This document shows, piece after piece, positions 22,812 through 28,949 of a stretch of DNA of 64,000 nt (the first letter of the stretch is position 1; the number at the start of each line of letters is the position of its first letter). This stretch comes from Blattabacterium cuenoti (GTDB lineage Bacteria; Bacteroidota; Bacteroidia; Flavobacteriales; Blattabacteriaceae). Under the pieces are notes generated by a model that made no database searches, was not told the origin of the DNA, and saw only the letters and a program-made list of their open reading frames with translations. Made by a program: the position numbers and the translations under genes. The stretch is from positions 62,001 through 126,000 of the forward strand of contig NZ_CP059183.1 in NCBI RefSeq assembly GCF_014251275.1. Reading direction: 5' to 3'.

Positions 22812-24506
22812 ATGAAAGAGGAAAAAATTAATAATTTTAGTAAACAAATAACAGAAAATTCAAGTTTACCTGCTGCACATTCTATGTTATATGCAATAGG
22901 GATGAAAGAAACAGATTTTAAAAAAGCTCAAGTTGGAATAATAAGTAATTGGTATGAAGGAAATCCTTGTAATATTCATTTAAATTCTCTTGCTAAAAGG
23001 GTAAAAAATTCAATTAAAAAAAATAATTTAATAGGTTTTCAAATTACTACTATTGGAATTAGTGATGGAATTACTATGGGGACTCCTGGAATGAGATATT
23101 CTCTTCCTTCTAGAGAATTAATAGCAGATAGTATAGAAAGCGTAGTTGAATCTCATTGCTATGATGGAGTAATAGCAATTCCAGGATGTGATAAAAATAT
23201 CCCAGGTGTTATGATAGGATTACTTAGATTAAATAGACCTTCTATAATTGTGTATGGAGGGACAATAGCTTCTGGATATTATAATGGAAATAAACTAGAT
23301 ATAGTTTCTTCTTTCGAAGCATTAGGAAAAAAAAATAATTCTATAATAACTGATGAAGAATATAAAAATATTATAAAAAATTCTTGTCCAGGTCCTGGAG
23401 CATGTGGAGGAATGTATACTGCAAATACTATGGCTACTGCACTAGAAGCAGTAGGAATGTTGTTACCTTATTCATCTTCTTCTCCGGCTAAAAGTAATGA
23501 AAAAAAAAAAGAATGCAAACAAGTTGCTATATATATAAAAAAATTATTGAAAAAAAATATAAAGACAAAAGATATAGTTACAAAAAACTCTGTAGAAAAT
23601 GGAATAAAATTAGCTATATGTTTAGGAGGATCTACAAATTTAGTTTTACATTTTCTGGCAATTGCTAAAGCAGCAAATTTGAATATTACATTAAAAGATT
23701 TTCAAAAAATTAGTAACGAAACACCTTTTATAGGAAATTTAAAACCTAGTGGAATTTTTTCAATGGAAGATCTTCATGTTAATATAGGAGGAATTCCAGT
23801 TATTATTAAGTATCTTATTAAAAAAAAAATATTATTAGGGGATTGTTTAACAGTTACTGGAAAAACATTATATGAAAATGTTAAAGACGCACAAGATTTA
23901 ACTTTTACTAAAAAAATAATTTATCCTATTGAAACTCCTATAAAAACAAAAGGTCACATTAGGATTTTATATGGGAACATTTCTCCAGAGGGTTCAGTTG
24001 CTAAAATAACAGGAAAAGAAGGTACTAAATTTCGTGGGAGAGCAATGGTTTTTAATTCAGAATATGAAGCAAACAAATCTATAATAAATAATCAAATAAA
24101 ACCTGGAACAGTAATTGTAATTAGATATGTAGGGCCAGTAGGAGGTCCAGGTATGCCTGAAATGTTAAAACCTACTTCCTATATTATGGGAAGTGGATTA
24201 GGAGATAAAGTTGCACTTATAACAGATGGTAGATTTTCAGGAGGTACTCATGGATTTGTTGTAGGACATATTACACCTGAAGCTCAAAATGGTGGAACAA
24301 TAGCTATAATAAAAAACGGAGATTTTATTAAAATAGATTCAGAAAATAATACAATTACTCTAGAAATAAAAGAAGAAGAAATAAGAAGAAGAAGAAGATT
24401 ATGGAGTCCTATTAATTCCTTTAAAAAAATAAATAAAGGATATTTATATAAATATACAAAAATAGTCTCTTCAGCATCTACAGGATGTGTTACAGATGAA
24501 TTTTAA
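22812..24506 (+). CDS. ilvD: Dihydroxy-acid dehydratase
   Basis: Fourth-stage enzyme of Ile/Val synthesis; dehydrates dihydroxy acids to 2-keto acids using an Fe-S cluster. The 564-residue protein shows IPGCDKNIPG and CPGPGACGGMYTANTM (cluster cysteines) and the C-terminal TDGRFSGGTHG and VGPVGGPGMPEM blocks. First gene of ilvD-ilvB-ilvN-ilvC-ilvA, with ilvB starting 5 bp after its stop. An A11 run is in frame at 23500-23510. Confidence 0.96.
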   Translation: MKEEKINNFSKQITENSSLPAAHSMLYAIGMKETDFKKAQVGIISNWYEGNPCNIHLNSLAKRVKNSIKKNNLIGFQITTIGISDGITMGTPGMRYSLPSRELIADSIESVVESHCYDGVIAIPGCDKNIPGVMIGLLRLNRPSIIVYGGTIASGYYNGNKLDIVSSFEALGKKNNSIITDEEYKNIIKNSCPGPGACGGMYTANTMATALEAVGMLLPYSSSSPAKSNEKKKECKQVAIYIKKLLKKNIKTKDIVTKNSVENGIKLAICLGGSTNLVLHFLAIAKAANLNITLKDFQKISNETPFIGNLKPSGIFSMEDLHVNIGGIPVIIKYLIKKKILLGDCLTVTGKTLYENVKDAQDLTFTKKIIYPIETPIKTKGHIRILYGNISPEGSVAKITGKEGTKFRGRAMVFNSEYEANKSIINNQIKPGTVIVIRYVGPVGGPGMPEMLKPTSYIMGSGLGDKVALITDGRFSGGTHGFVVGHITPEAQNGGTIAIIKNGDFIKIDSENNTITLEIKEEEIRRRRRLWSPINSFKKINKGYLYKYTKIVSSASTGCVTDEF

Positions 24507-24511
24507 TTAAT

Positions 24512-26212
24512 ATGGAAGGAAATTTAACTTCTGGTTCTGAAATAGTTATAAAATCTCTCTTAAACGAAAAAGTAAGGTATATTTTTGGATATCCTGGTGG
24601 AGCAATAATGCCAATATATGATTCTTTACATGATTATTTGAACATAATTTCGCATGTACTAATGCGTCATGAACAAGGGACAATTCATGCAGCACAAGGT
24701 TATGCTAGAGTAACAGGTGAAGTTGGAGTTTGTTTTACTACTTCTGGTCCTGGAGCTACTAATTTAATTACAGGATTAGCTGATGCATTAGCTGATAGTA
24801 CCCCAGTTGTGTGTATTACAGGTCAAGTATTTTCTCATCTTTTAGGTACTGATGCTTTCCAAGAAACAAACATTATTGATATTTCTCTTCCTGTAACTAA
24901 GTGGAATATTCAGGTTTTACAAGCAAAAAATATTTTTAACGCAATTAAAAAAGGATTTGTCATAGCAAAACAAGGTAGACCCGGCCCAGTATTAATAGAT
25001 ATAACTAAAGATGCTCAATTACAAAAAGAAAAGTTAACTAAAAATTTTTTTAGAAAAAAAATAAATATTTATTATAAAAAATCAAATTTTATTATAAATG
25101 ATAATATAATAAAAGCAGCTAATTTAATAAATTCATCTAAAAAACCATTAATTATAATAGGTCATGGTATTATATTGGCTGAAGCAGAAGATGAATTTAA
25201 AATATTTGCTGAAAAGACTGGAATTCCAGTAGCAAGTACTTTATTAGGATTAGGGGCATTAGATAGTACACATTATTTATATGTAGGGATGTTAGGTATG
25301 CATGGAAATTATGCTCCTAATGTATTAACAAATCAATGTGACGTCCTTATTGCTATAGGAATGAGATTTGATGATAGAGTAACAGGAAACATAAAAAAAT
25401 ATGCAAAAAAATCTAAAATTATTCATTTAGAAATAGATTCTTCGGAAATTAATAAAAATATATCGTGTAATATATCCATATTAGGTAACTGTAAAACTTC
25501 TTTAAAAAAATTAATTCATTATGTAAATAAATCAAATCACAAAAAATGGATAAAAAAATTCTTTTCTCTTAAAAAAGAAGAAGATAAAATAGTTATACAA
25601 AAAGACCTTAATCCAAAAAGTGGAGGAATTACTATGGGTGAAGTTTTAAAATGGATTAATTTATATAAAAAAAAAAATGCAATACTTGTAACAGATGTTG
25701 GCCAGCATCAAATGATAGCTTCTAGATATTTTAAATTTACATGTAAAAAAAGTCAAATAACTTCTGGAGGCTTAGGTACTATGGGTTTTGCATTACCTGC
25801 TTCAATAGGAGCAAAATTAGGAGCAAAAAATAGACAAGTATTATGCATAGTAGGAGATGGAGGGATTCAAATGACCATTCAAGAAATGGGGACAATACTA
25901 CAATATAGGATATGTATAAAAATTATATTATTAAATAATAATTTTTTGGGAATGGTAAGACAATGGCAACATCTTTTTTTTAATAAACGTTATTCATGTA
26001 CTAAATTAGTAAATCCAAGTTTTACTAAATTAGCCAATGCATACAATATTGAGTCTAAAAGAGTAGATAAAAGAGAAAAATTAAAAAATTCTGTAAAAGA
26101 AGCTTTATACAAAGAAACTCCATTCTTATTAGAAGTAGTTGTAGAAAAAGAAAACAATGTTTTCCCTATGATTCCTTCAGGTGCAGCAGTAGATGAAATT
26201 CGTTTGATTTAA
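24512..26212 (+). CDS. ilvB: Acetolactate synthase large (catalytic) subunit
   Basis: ThDP enzyme that makes acetolactate or acetohydroxybutyrate. 566 residues with the ThDP glutamate in MRHEQGTIHAAQGYAR, GPGATNLITGLADA, the FAD-region GMRFDDRVTGN, and the Mg/ThDP motif GDGGIQMTIQE...NNNFLGMVRQW. The regulatory subunit partner, normally needed for full activity and valine feedback, is frameshifted just downstream. An A11 run lies in frame at 25667-25677. Confidence 0.96.
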   Translation: MEGNLTSGSEIVIKSLLNEKVRYIFGYPGGAIMPIYDSLHDYLNIISHVLMRHEQGTIHAAQGYARVTGEVGVCFTTSGPGATNLITGLADALADSTPVVCITGQVFSHLLGTDAFQETNIIDISLPVTKWNIQVLQAKNIFNAIKKGFVIAKQGRPGPVLIDITKDAQLQKEKLTKNFFRKKINIYYKKSNFIINDNIIKAANLINSSKKPLIIIGHGIILAEAEDEFKIFAEKTGIPVASTLLGLGALDSTHYLYVGMLGMHGNYAPNVLTNQCDVLIAIGMRFDDRVTGNIKKYAKKSKIIHLEIDSSEINKNISCNISILGNCKTSLKKLIHYVNKSNHKKWIKKFFSLKKEEDKIVIQKDLNPKSGGITMGEVLKWINLYKKKNAILVTDVGQHQMIASRYFKFTCKKSQITSGGLGTMGFALPASIGAKLGAKNRQVLCIVGDGGIQMTIQEMGTILQYRICIKIILLNNNFLGMVRQWQHLFFNKRYSCTKLVNPSFTKLANAYNIESKRVDKREKLKNSVKEALYKETPFLLEVVVEKENNVFPMIPSGAAVDEIRLI

Positions 26213-26287: not shown

Positions 26288-26553
26288 ATGAAAAAATATG
26301 AATTTAGAATTAAAATTTTAGTAGAAAATGATATAAGATTGCTAAGTAAAATACTTATTATATTAAATAGAAAAAATTTAGATATAAACTATGTAAATGT
26401 ATGTAAAAAAAAAATAATTTTTACATAACTAATCAACAATATATTTTAGATGTAGTATGCGAAGAAAAACAATTCATTAAAATAAAAAAAATAATACAAA
26501 AATTTATTGGAATAATAAATATTTATTCTTATAAAAAAAGAATAATGTTTTAA
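26288..26553 (+). pseudogene. ilvN: Acetolactate synthase small subunit, frameshifted at an A10 tract
   Basis: From ATG 26288 the frame reads MKKYEFRIKILVENDIRLLSKIL..., an ACT-domain start as in IlvN, and stops at 26426-26428. The A10 run 26405-26414 lies just before. If one A is added (or two removed), the frame continues as ...NNFYITNQQYILDVVCEEK...IIQKFIGIINIYSYKKRIMF and ends at TAA 26551-26553, giving about 88 residues. The position between ilvB and ilvC supports the identity. The homology of both halves to one small ACT protein suggests a single recent frameshift. It may be rescued by transcriptional slippage, be a real pseudogene, or be a sequencing error. Confidence 0.8.
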
Positions 26554-26621: not shown

Positions 26622-27662
26622 ATGAAAATTAAAATCGGATCTGTAGAAGAAAATATCATTACAAGAAATGAATTCTCTATAGAAAAGGCAAGGGAAATTT
26701 TAAAAAATGAAAAAATTTCCGTTTTGGGTTATGGGGTCCAAGGCCCTGCGCAAAGTAAAAATCTAAAAGATAATGGATTTAATGTAATAATAGGACAAAG
26801 AAAAAATACTTTATCTTGGAAAAAAGCATTAGATGATGGGTGGATAGAAGGAAAAAATCTTTTTTCCTTAGAAAAAGCATCTGAGTTAGGGTCTATATTA
26901 ATGTATTTATTGTCAGATGCCGGACAAATATCTTTTTGGAAAACTATTAATAAATATTTAACAAAAGGAAAATCCCTATATTTTTCACATGGATTTGGAT
27001 TGACTTTTTATAAAAAAACTAAAATAAATCCACCTAATAATATAGATATTTTTTTAGTAGCACCTAAAGGTTCAGGTACTAGTTTAAGAAGACTTTTTAA
27101 ACAAGGAAATGGAATTAATTCTAGTTATGCTATATATCAAGATTATAGTGGTAAAAGTTTAGAAAAAGTATTATCAATTGGAATAGGAATAGGTTCTGGA
27201 TATTTATTTAAAACAAGTTTTAAAAATGAAGTCTATTCAGATTTAGTAGGAGAGAGAGGGACATTAATGGGGGCAATTCAAGGAATATTTTCAGCACAAT
27301 ATCAAATATTAAGGGAAAATGGGCATTCTCCATCAGAAGCTTTTAATGAAACTGTAGAAGAATTAACTCAAAGTTTAATGCCTTTAGTATCTGAAAAAGG
27401 AATGGATTGGATGTATAAAAATTGTTCTACTACTGCTCAAAGAGGGGCGTTAGATTGGTGGAAAAAATTTAAAGAAGCTACAATACCAGTATTCAGAGAA
27501 TTATACAATGAAGTAGCATCTGGAAATGAAGCAAAAAACATTATAAAATCAAATATTAGAAAAGATTATAGATTAAAATTAGAAAAAGAATTAAAAGACT
27601 TACATGATAGTGAATTATGGGAAGCTGGATCTGTTATTAGAAAATTACGTCCAGAAAAATAA
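26622..27662 (+). CDS. ilvC: Ketol-acid reductoisomerase
   Basis: Isomerises and reduces acetolactate or acetohydroxybutyrate with NADPH and Mg. 346 residues, the short Bacteroidota-like form: the NADPH loop GYGVQGPAQ, then VAPKGSGTSLR and the C-terminal helical domain with DLVGERGTLMGAIQG and ETVEELTQSLMPLVSEKG, which carry the metal-binding acidic residues. It follows the broken ilvN after 68 bp and precedes ilvA by 21 bp. Confidence 0.95.
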   Translation: MKIKIGSVEENIITRNEFSIEKAREILKNEKISVLGYGVQGPAQSKNLKDNGFNVIIGQRKNTLSWKKALDDGWIEGKNLFSLEKASELGSILMYLLSDAGQISFWKTINKYLTKGKSLYFSHGFGLTFYKKTKINPPNNIDIFLVAPKGSGTSLRRLFKQGNGINSSYAIYQDYSGKSLEKVLSIGIGIGSGYLFKTSFKNEVYSDLVGERGTLMGAIQGIFSAQYQILRENGHSPSEAFNETVEELTQSLMPLVSEKGMDWMYKNCSTTAQRGALDWWKKFKEATIPVFRELYNEVASGNEAKNIIKSNIRKDYRLKLEKELKDLHDSELWEAGSVIRKLRPEK

Positions 27663-27683: not shown

Positions 27684-28949
27684 TTGAAAAACAAATTTAT
27701 AGGATATTTTCCGCAATACAAAGAAATAATTAAGGCTAAAAAAATATTAAAAAATATTATTTACGAAACTCCTCTACAAAAAAACTATTTTCTATCAGAA
27801 AAATATAAAGCTAATATTTATTTAAAAAGAGAAGACTTACAAATAATACGTTCTTACAAAATTAGAGGAGCATATAACAAAATAATAAATTTATCTAATG
27901 AAGATTTAAAAAAAGGAATAGTTTGTGCAAGTGCTGGTAATCATGCACAAGGAGTAGCATATTCTTGTAATATACTGAAAATATCAGGTAAAATTTATAT
28001 GCCAAATACTACTCCTAAACAAAAAGTAGAAAGAGTTAAAATGTTTGGAAAAAAATTCATAAAAATTATTCTTACTGGAGATACTTTTGATACAGTAAAT
28101 GAAGTAGCAATGGAAGAATGTAAAAAAAATGAAAAAATATTTATTCATCCTTTTGATGACGATAAAATTATTGAGGGACAAGCTACTGTAGGTATGGAAA
28201 TATTAAAACAATATAATTCATGTATAGACTATATTTTTATTCCTGTTGGAGGTGGAGGATTAATTTCTGGAGTTGGTAGTTATTTTAAACAAACTAGTCC
28301 TAATACAAAAATTATAGGTGTAGAACCAAAAGGAGCTCCATCTATGAGTTATTCTTTGAAAAAAGGAAAAATAGTAAAATTGAAAACAATAGATAGATTT
28401 ATTGATGGAGCATCAGTAAAAAAAGTAGGTAAATTAAATTTTCATATATGTAATCAAATATTACATGATATGGAAACAGTTTCAGAAGGAAAAGTATGTA
28501 CAACTATTTTAGACTTATATAATTTAGAAGCTATAGTAGCAGAACCTGCAGGAGCTTTATCAATAGCTGTTTTAGATTGTTATTCTGATAAAATAAAAAA
28601 TAAAACTATTGTTTGCATTTTAAGTGGAGGAAATAATGATATAACTAGAACAGAAGAGATAAGAGAAAAGTCTCTTTTATATGAAGGTAAAAAACATTAT
28701 TTCATAGTAAAATTTCCACAAAGAGCAGGATCTTTAAAAGAATTCGTAAATAATATTTTAGGACCTAAAGATGATATTACTTATTTTGAATATTATAAAA
28801 AAACCTCTAAAGAAGAAGGCCCAGCAATTATAGGAATAGAACTATCAAGAAAAAATGAATTTTCTACTTTATTAGGAAAAATGAAAAAACATAAAGTACA
28901 TTTTCAATATTTAAATAAAAATCCAGATTTATTTCGTATACTTATTTAA
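27684..28949 (+). CDS. ilvA: Threonine dehydratase, biosynthetic
   Basis: Deaminates threonine to 2-oxobutyrate, the entry to isoleucine. The 421-residue fold-type II PLP enzyme has the PLP lysine in SYKIRGAYNK, phosphate-binding glycines in PVGGGGLISGVG and an ILSGGNND block. A single C-terminal ACT-like regulatory domain (about residues 330-421, from YFIVKFPQRAGSL) is kept, so isoleucine feedback may persist. The start is TTG at 27684; no ATG lies near the family N-terminus. Confidence 0.94.
   Translation: MKNKFIGYFPQYKEIIKAKKILKNIIYETPLQKNYFLSEKYKANIYLKREDLQIIRSYKIRGAYNKIINLSNEDLKKGIVCASAGNHAQGVAYSCNILKISGKIYMPNTTPKQKVERVKMFGKKFIKIILTGDTFDTVNEVAMEECKKNEKIFIHPFDDDKIIEGQATVGMEILKQYNSCIDYIFIPVGGGGLISGVGSYFKQTSPNTKIIGVEPKGAPSMSYSLKKGKIVKLKTIDRFIDGASVKKVGKLNFHICNQILHDMETVSEGKVCTTILDLYNLEAIVAEPAGALSIAVLDCYSDKIKNKTIVCILSGGNNDITRTEEIREKSLLYEGKKHYFIVKFPQRAGSLKEFVNNILGPKDDITYFEYYKKTSKEEGPAIIGIELSRKNEFSTLLGKMKKHKVHFQYLNKNPDLFRILI

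Follow-up and report, generated by a model that had tools for sequence, protein, structure and literature searches.

A split acetolactate synthase small-subunit gene at an A10 tract in Blattabacterium and its possible tolerance through polymerase slippage

The ilv cluster and the split ilvN gene

The window analyzed here is a 64,000-nucleotide stretch (bases 62001 to 126000) of a Blattabacterium genome (G000; 594,902 bp in one contig, 22.9% GC). It contains a cluster of ilv genes in which ilvD, ilvB, ilvC, and ilvA are all open and of full length, as a preliminary description of this DNA had stated when it called the cluster around ilvN intact. The features of the cluster, numbered from the first base of the window, are as follows.

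22812 to 24506, + strand: ilvD, dihydroxy-acid dehydratase, intact (ILVD_EDD_N and ILV_EDD_C)
24512 to 26212, + strand: ilvB, acetolactate synthase large subunit, intact (TIGR00118, 677 bits)
26288 to 26428, + strand: 5′ part of ilvN in frame 0, from the ATG to a premature stop, 46 amino acids (aa), first half of the ACT domain
26405 to 26414, + strand: A10 tract, site of the frame break; repair requires +1 or −2 nucleotides
26407 to 26553, + strand: 48-codon 3′ part of ilvN, shifted frame, encoding the second half of the ACT domain
26622 to 27662, + strand: ilvC, ketol-acid reductoisomerase, intact (KARI_N and KARI_C)
27684 to 28949, + strand: ilvA, threonine dehydratase with a C-terminal regulatory domain, intact (PALP and Thr_dehydrat_C)

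The same description had placed a split of ilvN at the A10 tract, with the remainder coding to position 26553, and these coordinates proved exact on re-examination. At A10, ilvN is one nucleotide short or two in excess, the shortest repair being +1 (or −2), and in the alignment with congeneric IlvN proteins the tract maps to a variable loop of the ACT domain. The 5′ part is 64% identical to residues 2 to 37 of congeneric IlvN and gives a weak Pfam hit to ACT_4. The two pieces jointly match congeneric IlvN in two frames (tblastn E value, 9e-19), and the split is therefore not a chance arrangement. The first ATG, GTG, or TTG codon in the 3′ part is its penultimate codon, which rules out re-initiation downstream of the break at any of these codons; barring rare start codons, the 3′ part can thus be expressed only via frameshifting. 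A genome-wide search found no second copy of ilvN. The read-through product has only weak hits to ACT, ACT_4, and ACT_AHAS_ss, under the Pfam cutoffs, and scores 16 bits against TIGR00119, for which the cutoff is 57 bits. Nonetheless, clear homology to congeneric IlvN, together with synteny beside ilvB, identifies the split gene as that for the acetohydroxyacid synthase (AHAS) small subunit of the IlvN/IlvH family.

In-frame A11 tracts are carried by ilvD (positions 23500 to 23510) and by ilvB (25667 to 25677). Apart from ilvN, no convincing broken gene turned up in the window; the open reading frame at one other break event, near 51.1 kb, looks spurious. A 9- to 10-bp A/T hairpin around the A10 tract was also set aside, such repeats being only mildly more frequent in this genome than under a Markov model (171 versus 111). 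A search of a phage collection returned generic ilvB hits only.

The part of ilvN after the tract is conserved to a degree that matches that in species with an intact gene. The ratio of identity to core congeners after versus before the tract was 0.82, and in 15 other lineages it ranged from 0.75 to 1.12, with about 35 residues on each side and hence low power. At that power, no accelerated decay of the 3′ part is apparent. In simulations, about 0.3 neutral substitutions per site introduced a stop into the downstream part 95% of the time. The break is either young or compensated.

ilvN and valine feedback across the genus

Forty-nine members of the genus, the study genome included, were compared. 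ilvN sequence is present in 44 of them, and the same 44 have ilvC. Among these 44, ilvN is open in 42, broken at A10 in the study genome, and broken at A8 in G064 (L206:1156-1480), where the gene goes out of frame near its N terminus. G064 also shares a frameshift in the C-terminal tail with its relatives G005 (L032) and G035 (L034), and in all three the MDLPL-type tail sequence persists in another frame. The remaining five genomes (G007, G013, G026, G036, and G060) have neither a recognizable ilvN nor an intact ilvC; what G026 retains of ilvC is an eroded piece interrupted by nine stops, and ilvB is missing from all four of the five that were tested. The joint absence of ilvN, ilvC, and ilvB suggests that branched-chain amino acid synthesis was lost as a block. 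The break at the A10 site was found in no other congener. In a tree based on ilv genes, the study genome is a long, isolated branch with no close sister, and the age of its ilvN break is therefore not bracketed by a sister lineage.

Open IlvN proteins in the genus are about 80 to 113 aa long, versus 176 aa in two relatives of the same order, whose C-terminal domain is missing throughout the genus. N29, a valine contact in Escherichia coli IlvH (PMC11893703), is replaced by K, D, R, or Q in all 33 aligned congeneric IlvN proteins. G14, which the alignment equates with G20 of Corynebacterium glutamicum IlvN, is replaced by R or K in 31 of the 33; G20D/I21D/I22F is a feedback-resistant IlvN mutant of that species (PMC8709942). 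The study genome keeps N11 and has R at position 14 and D at position 29, residues that bear on feedback and not on family membership. Given these substitutions and the lost C-terminal domain, valine feedback was probably weak or absent before ilvN was frameshifted, which suggests that the loss of this feedback in Blattabacterium is old. Small subunits also raise AHAS activity, as stated for the plant enzyme (PMC5384131), and loss of IlvN would therefore be expected to cost activity rather than to cause overproduction.

nadD and other genes broken at A tracts

The conserved open reading frames of the study genome contain 133 A10 tracts, 37 A11 tracts, and 33 longer ones. About 6 of these roughly 200 long coding tracts meet a break site, as do about 10 in the congener G027. 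A9 tracts yielded no break site, and the sites adjoining A8 belong to a multiply broken serC-like gene or to a spurious open reading frame. All three A10 breaks of the study genome need +1. Outside the window, breaks at long A/T tracts of this genome also affect genes for a dnaX-like clamp loader (T10), a 4HBT thioesterase (A14), a TerC-family protein (A15), and an HSDR_N_2 nuclease-like protein (A10), with these four lying at about 52345, 426710, 522964, and 573135 of G000:C1. The approximately 10 genes out of frame at A10 to A14 tracts in G027:C1 (L076 to L107) comprise nadD and, under names assigned partly by sequence inspection, truA, an ATP synthase subunit gene, miaB, a ubiE-type methyltransferase gene, and an aroQ-like gene.

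When broken genes were surveyed in three congeners, the break in nadD (TIGR00482) proved common to the study genome and G027. This gene lies outside the window:

G000:C1, 307251 to 307828, − strand: nadD, nicotinate-nucleotide adenylyltransferase (genus loci L136 to L191)

Among 48 readable Blattabacterium nadD genes, 37 are out of frame at one common A10/A11 site. Repair would take +1 in 29 of them (11 at A10 and 18 at A11) and −1 in the other 8, all at A10; in the 11 genes that are in frame, the tract is 4 to 12 nucleotides long. The downstream part is open over at least 141 codons in all 48. A further genome, the small genome of G020, retains only a C-terminal nadD fragment (G020:C1:288253-288357). 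Outside the genus, nadD was a single uninterrupted match in all 15 outgroup genomes searched. Broken states are scattered over most lineages of the ilv-based tree, and the tract differs by a single A between close relatives.

nadD is normally essential in other bacteria. With the gene broken across most of the genus and the rest of it open, assembly error or loss of an essential gene is hard to credit, and the pattern fits transcriptional slippage. It follows that out-of-frame A-tract genes persist in Blattabacterium, presumably by such slippage. This is evidence of tolerance by the genus and does not prove rescue of ilvN, but as a control it makes tolerance of an ilvN-type break ordinary for the genus. 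The nadD site is the more interesting of the two, ilvN being ordinary for such genomes. In the literature searched, no paper named both Blattabacterium and nadD, and among eight papers mentioning Blattabacterium together with slippage, none reported slippage sites in Blattabacterium, as judged by titles except for one Blochmannia paper.

Explanations of the ilvN break and comparison with known systems

The ilvN break is most likely tolerated through polymerase slippage rather than being a clean loss or a route to valine overproduction, a reading to which we assign a probability of about 50%. ilvN would have slipped one nucleotide out of phase in an A run within the variable loop of the ACT domain, so that the genome now encodes the truncated 46-aa product. 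In a minority of transcripts, RNA polymerase would add one A (A10 to A11), and these would yield an 88-aa AHAS small subunit. The break would be tolerated because this partial rescue keeps IlvB supported with sufficient amounts of a small subunit that is probably insensitive to feedback; here we infer slippage, its direction, its level, and the residual function of the product. A single indel in a long A tract, in a gene otherwise open to position 26553, supports this reading. So do the undecayed 3′ part, the lack of a re-initiation codon and of a second ilvN, and the retention of ilvN by all 44 genomes with ilvC. The preliminary description had raised slippage, with a small and tunable output as its conjectured result; slippage is a serious possibility, and the nadD control makes it likelier in this genus.

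The published record from other insect symbionts bears on slippage in both directions. In Buchnera RNA, the most frequent homopolymer error is the addition of one nucleotide (PMC5574713), although the same study detected no frame-restoring transcript errors. According to earlier work as summarized in PMC5009743, 12 to 50% of transcripts are corrected in aphid and ant symbionts. Eight such A-tract frameshift genes occur in one Blochmannia, and several of the published Blochmannia cases are confined to one species (PMC3017870); conservation of a frameshift between lineages thus supports membership in the slippage class and does not define it. Further points count against slippage in ilvN. Without a close sister, the break could be very recent, and the fast evolution of ilvN, together with its break at a tract of only A8 in G064, suggests relaxed constraint.

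The strongest rival, less likely than slippage but a serious one, is an artefact of assembly or population: the tract would truly or mostly be A11 (or A8), or its lengths would be mixed within one insect, and ilvN would be mostly intact. The location of breaks on long tracts, with none at A9, is what sequencing error and replication slippage would both give, and other breaks in the study genome lie at A14 and A15, lengths more prone to miscalling. The preliminary description had linked an intact ilvN in close relatives to the A10 being an artefact; the gene is indeed open in 42 of the 44 genomes that keep ilvC, which favors an artefact, but openness elsewhere does not make the A10 one. Moreover, breaks occur at only about 6 of about 200 long coding tracts, and nadD is broken likewise in 37 assemblies with lineage-specific tract lengths, which indicates that such breaks are often real here.

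Somewhat less probable still, but likewise a serious rival, is a recent null allele, in which ilvN is a young pseudogene and IlvB functions without a partner or the pathway is being lost. The isolated long branch of the study genome is compatible with recency, and the second broken lineage (G064), the tail frameshift common to G005, G035, and G064, and the loss of ilvN and ilvC in five congeners all point in the same direction. Against this reading stand the absence of any congener that has ilvC and lacks ilvN sequence, the undecayed downstream part of the gene, and the intact state of ilvB, ilvC, and ilvD.

Ribosomal −1 frameshifting on the A AAA AAA codons of the tract, which would yield full IlvN, is improbable. 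An A_AAA_AAA heptamer does lie in the in-frame sequence TGT AAA AAA AAA A, and a −1 shift by the ribosome would have the same effect as the needed +1 nucleotide. However, no stimulatory RNA structure was found downstream of the ilvN tract (z score, −0.62), and in eight nadD cases the shift must go the other way, something that slippage during transcription accommodates but −1 frameshifting cannot. Adaptive deregulation, the proposal of the preliminary description that AHAS without IlvN escapes valine inhibition and supplies the host with more, is highly improbable: point mutations in C. glutamicum IlvN and C-terminal truncation do relieve inhibition (PMC8709942, PMC11893703), but throughout the genus residues of the valine site have already changed and the C-terminal domain is gone, loss of an activating subunit would also be expected to reduce AHAS activity (PMC5384131), and ilvN is kept in all 44 ilvC keepers and lost along with the pathway.

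Returning to slippage, the chances are about even that Blattabacterium depends on it at A tracts genus-wide, with nadD long out of frame while its tract drifted among lengths of 10, 11, and 12 and with ilvN as a later addition. Because transcription averages over such tracts, which frame they encode would be nearly neutral. In one Blattabacterium strain, gltX, atpG, and dnaN have been reported as pseudogenes (PMC6039017). If A-tract frameshifts are routinely tolerated, then some such reported pseudogenes may still be active in expression, and a metabolic model from which genes broken in this way had been deleted would be in error. With 48 natural variants of a single site, the nadD series allows a direct test of the time over which slippage can sustain an essential gene.

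The closest known counterparts are Buchnera and Blochmannia genes that are frameshifted at poly(A) tracts and rescued by slippage during transcription, reportedly described in original papers from 2008 and 2010. The present case is like those in that an AT-rich insect endosymbiont carries a single indel in a long A tract of an otherwise intact gene (PMC3017870; PMC5009743), in that essential or nutritional genes are hit, and, among the likenesses, in that frameshifts are conserved between species. It differs in that slippage products were measured there, whereas for ilvN they are predicted from sequence, and in that the ilvN break is not common to a relative at the same site; that of nadD is, over most of the genus. 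Programmed frameshifting or transcriptional slippage of the dnaX type occurs in E. coli and Thermus. ilvN resembles dnaX in its in-frame, A-rich slippery site and differs from it in that no stimulator was found and nothing points to the use of both products. Like IlvN and IlvM of E. coli, the Blattabacterium protein is a short, single-ACT AHAS subunit encoded beside the large subunit, and AHAS II of the IlvM type is valine insensitive (PMC5727371); unlike them, it has a broken frame in the study genome. Since relatives of the same order have the 176-aa, two-domain type, the short IlvN of Blattabacterium is probably a reduction.
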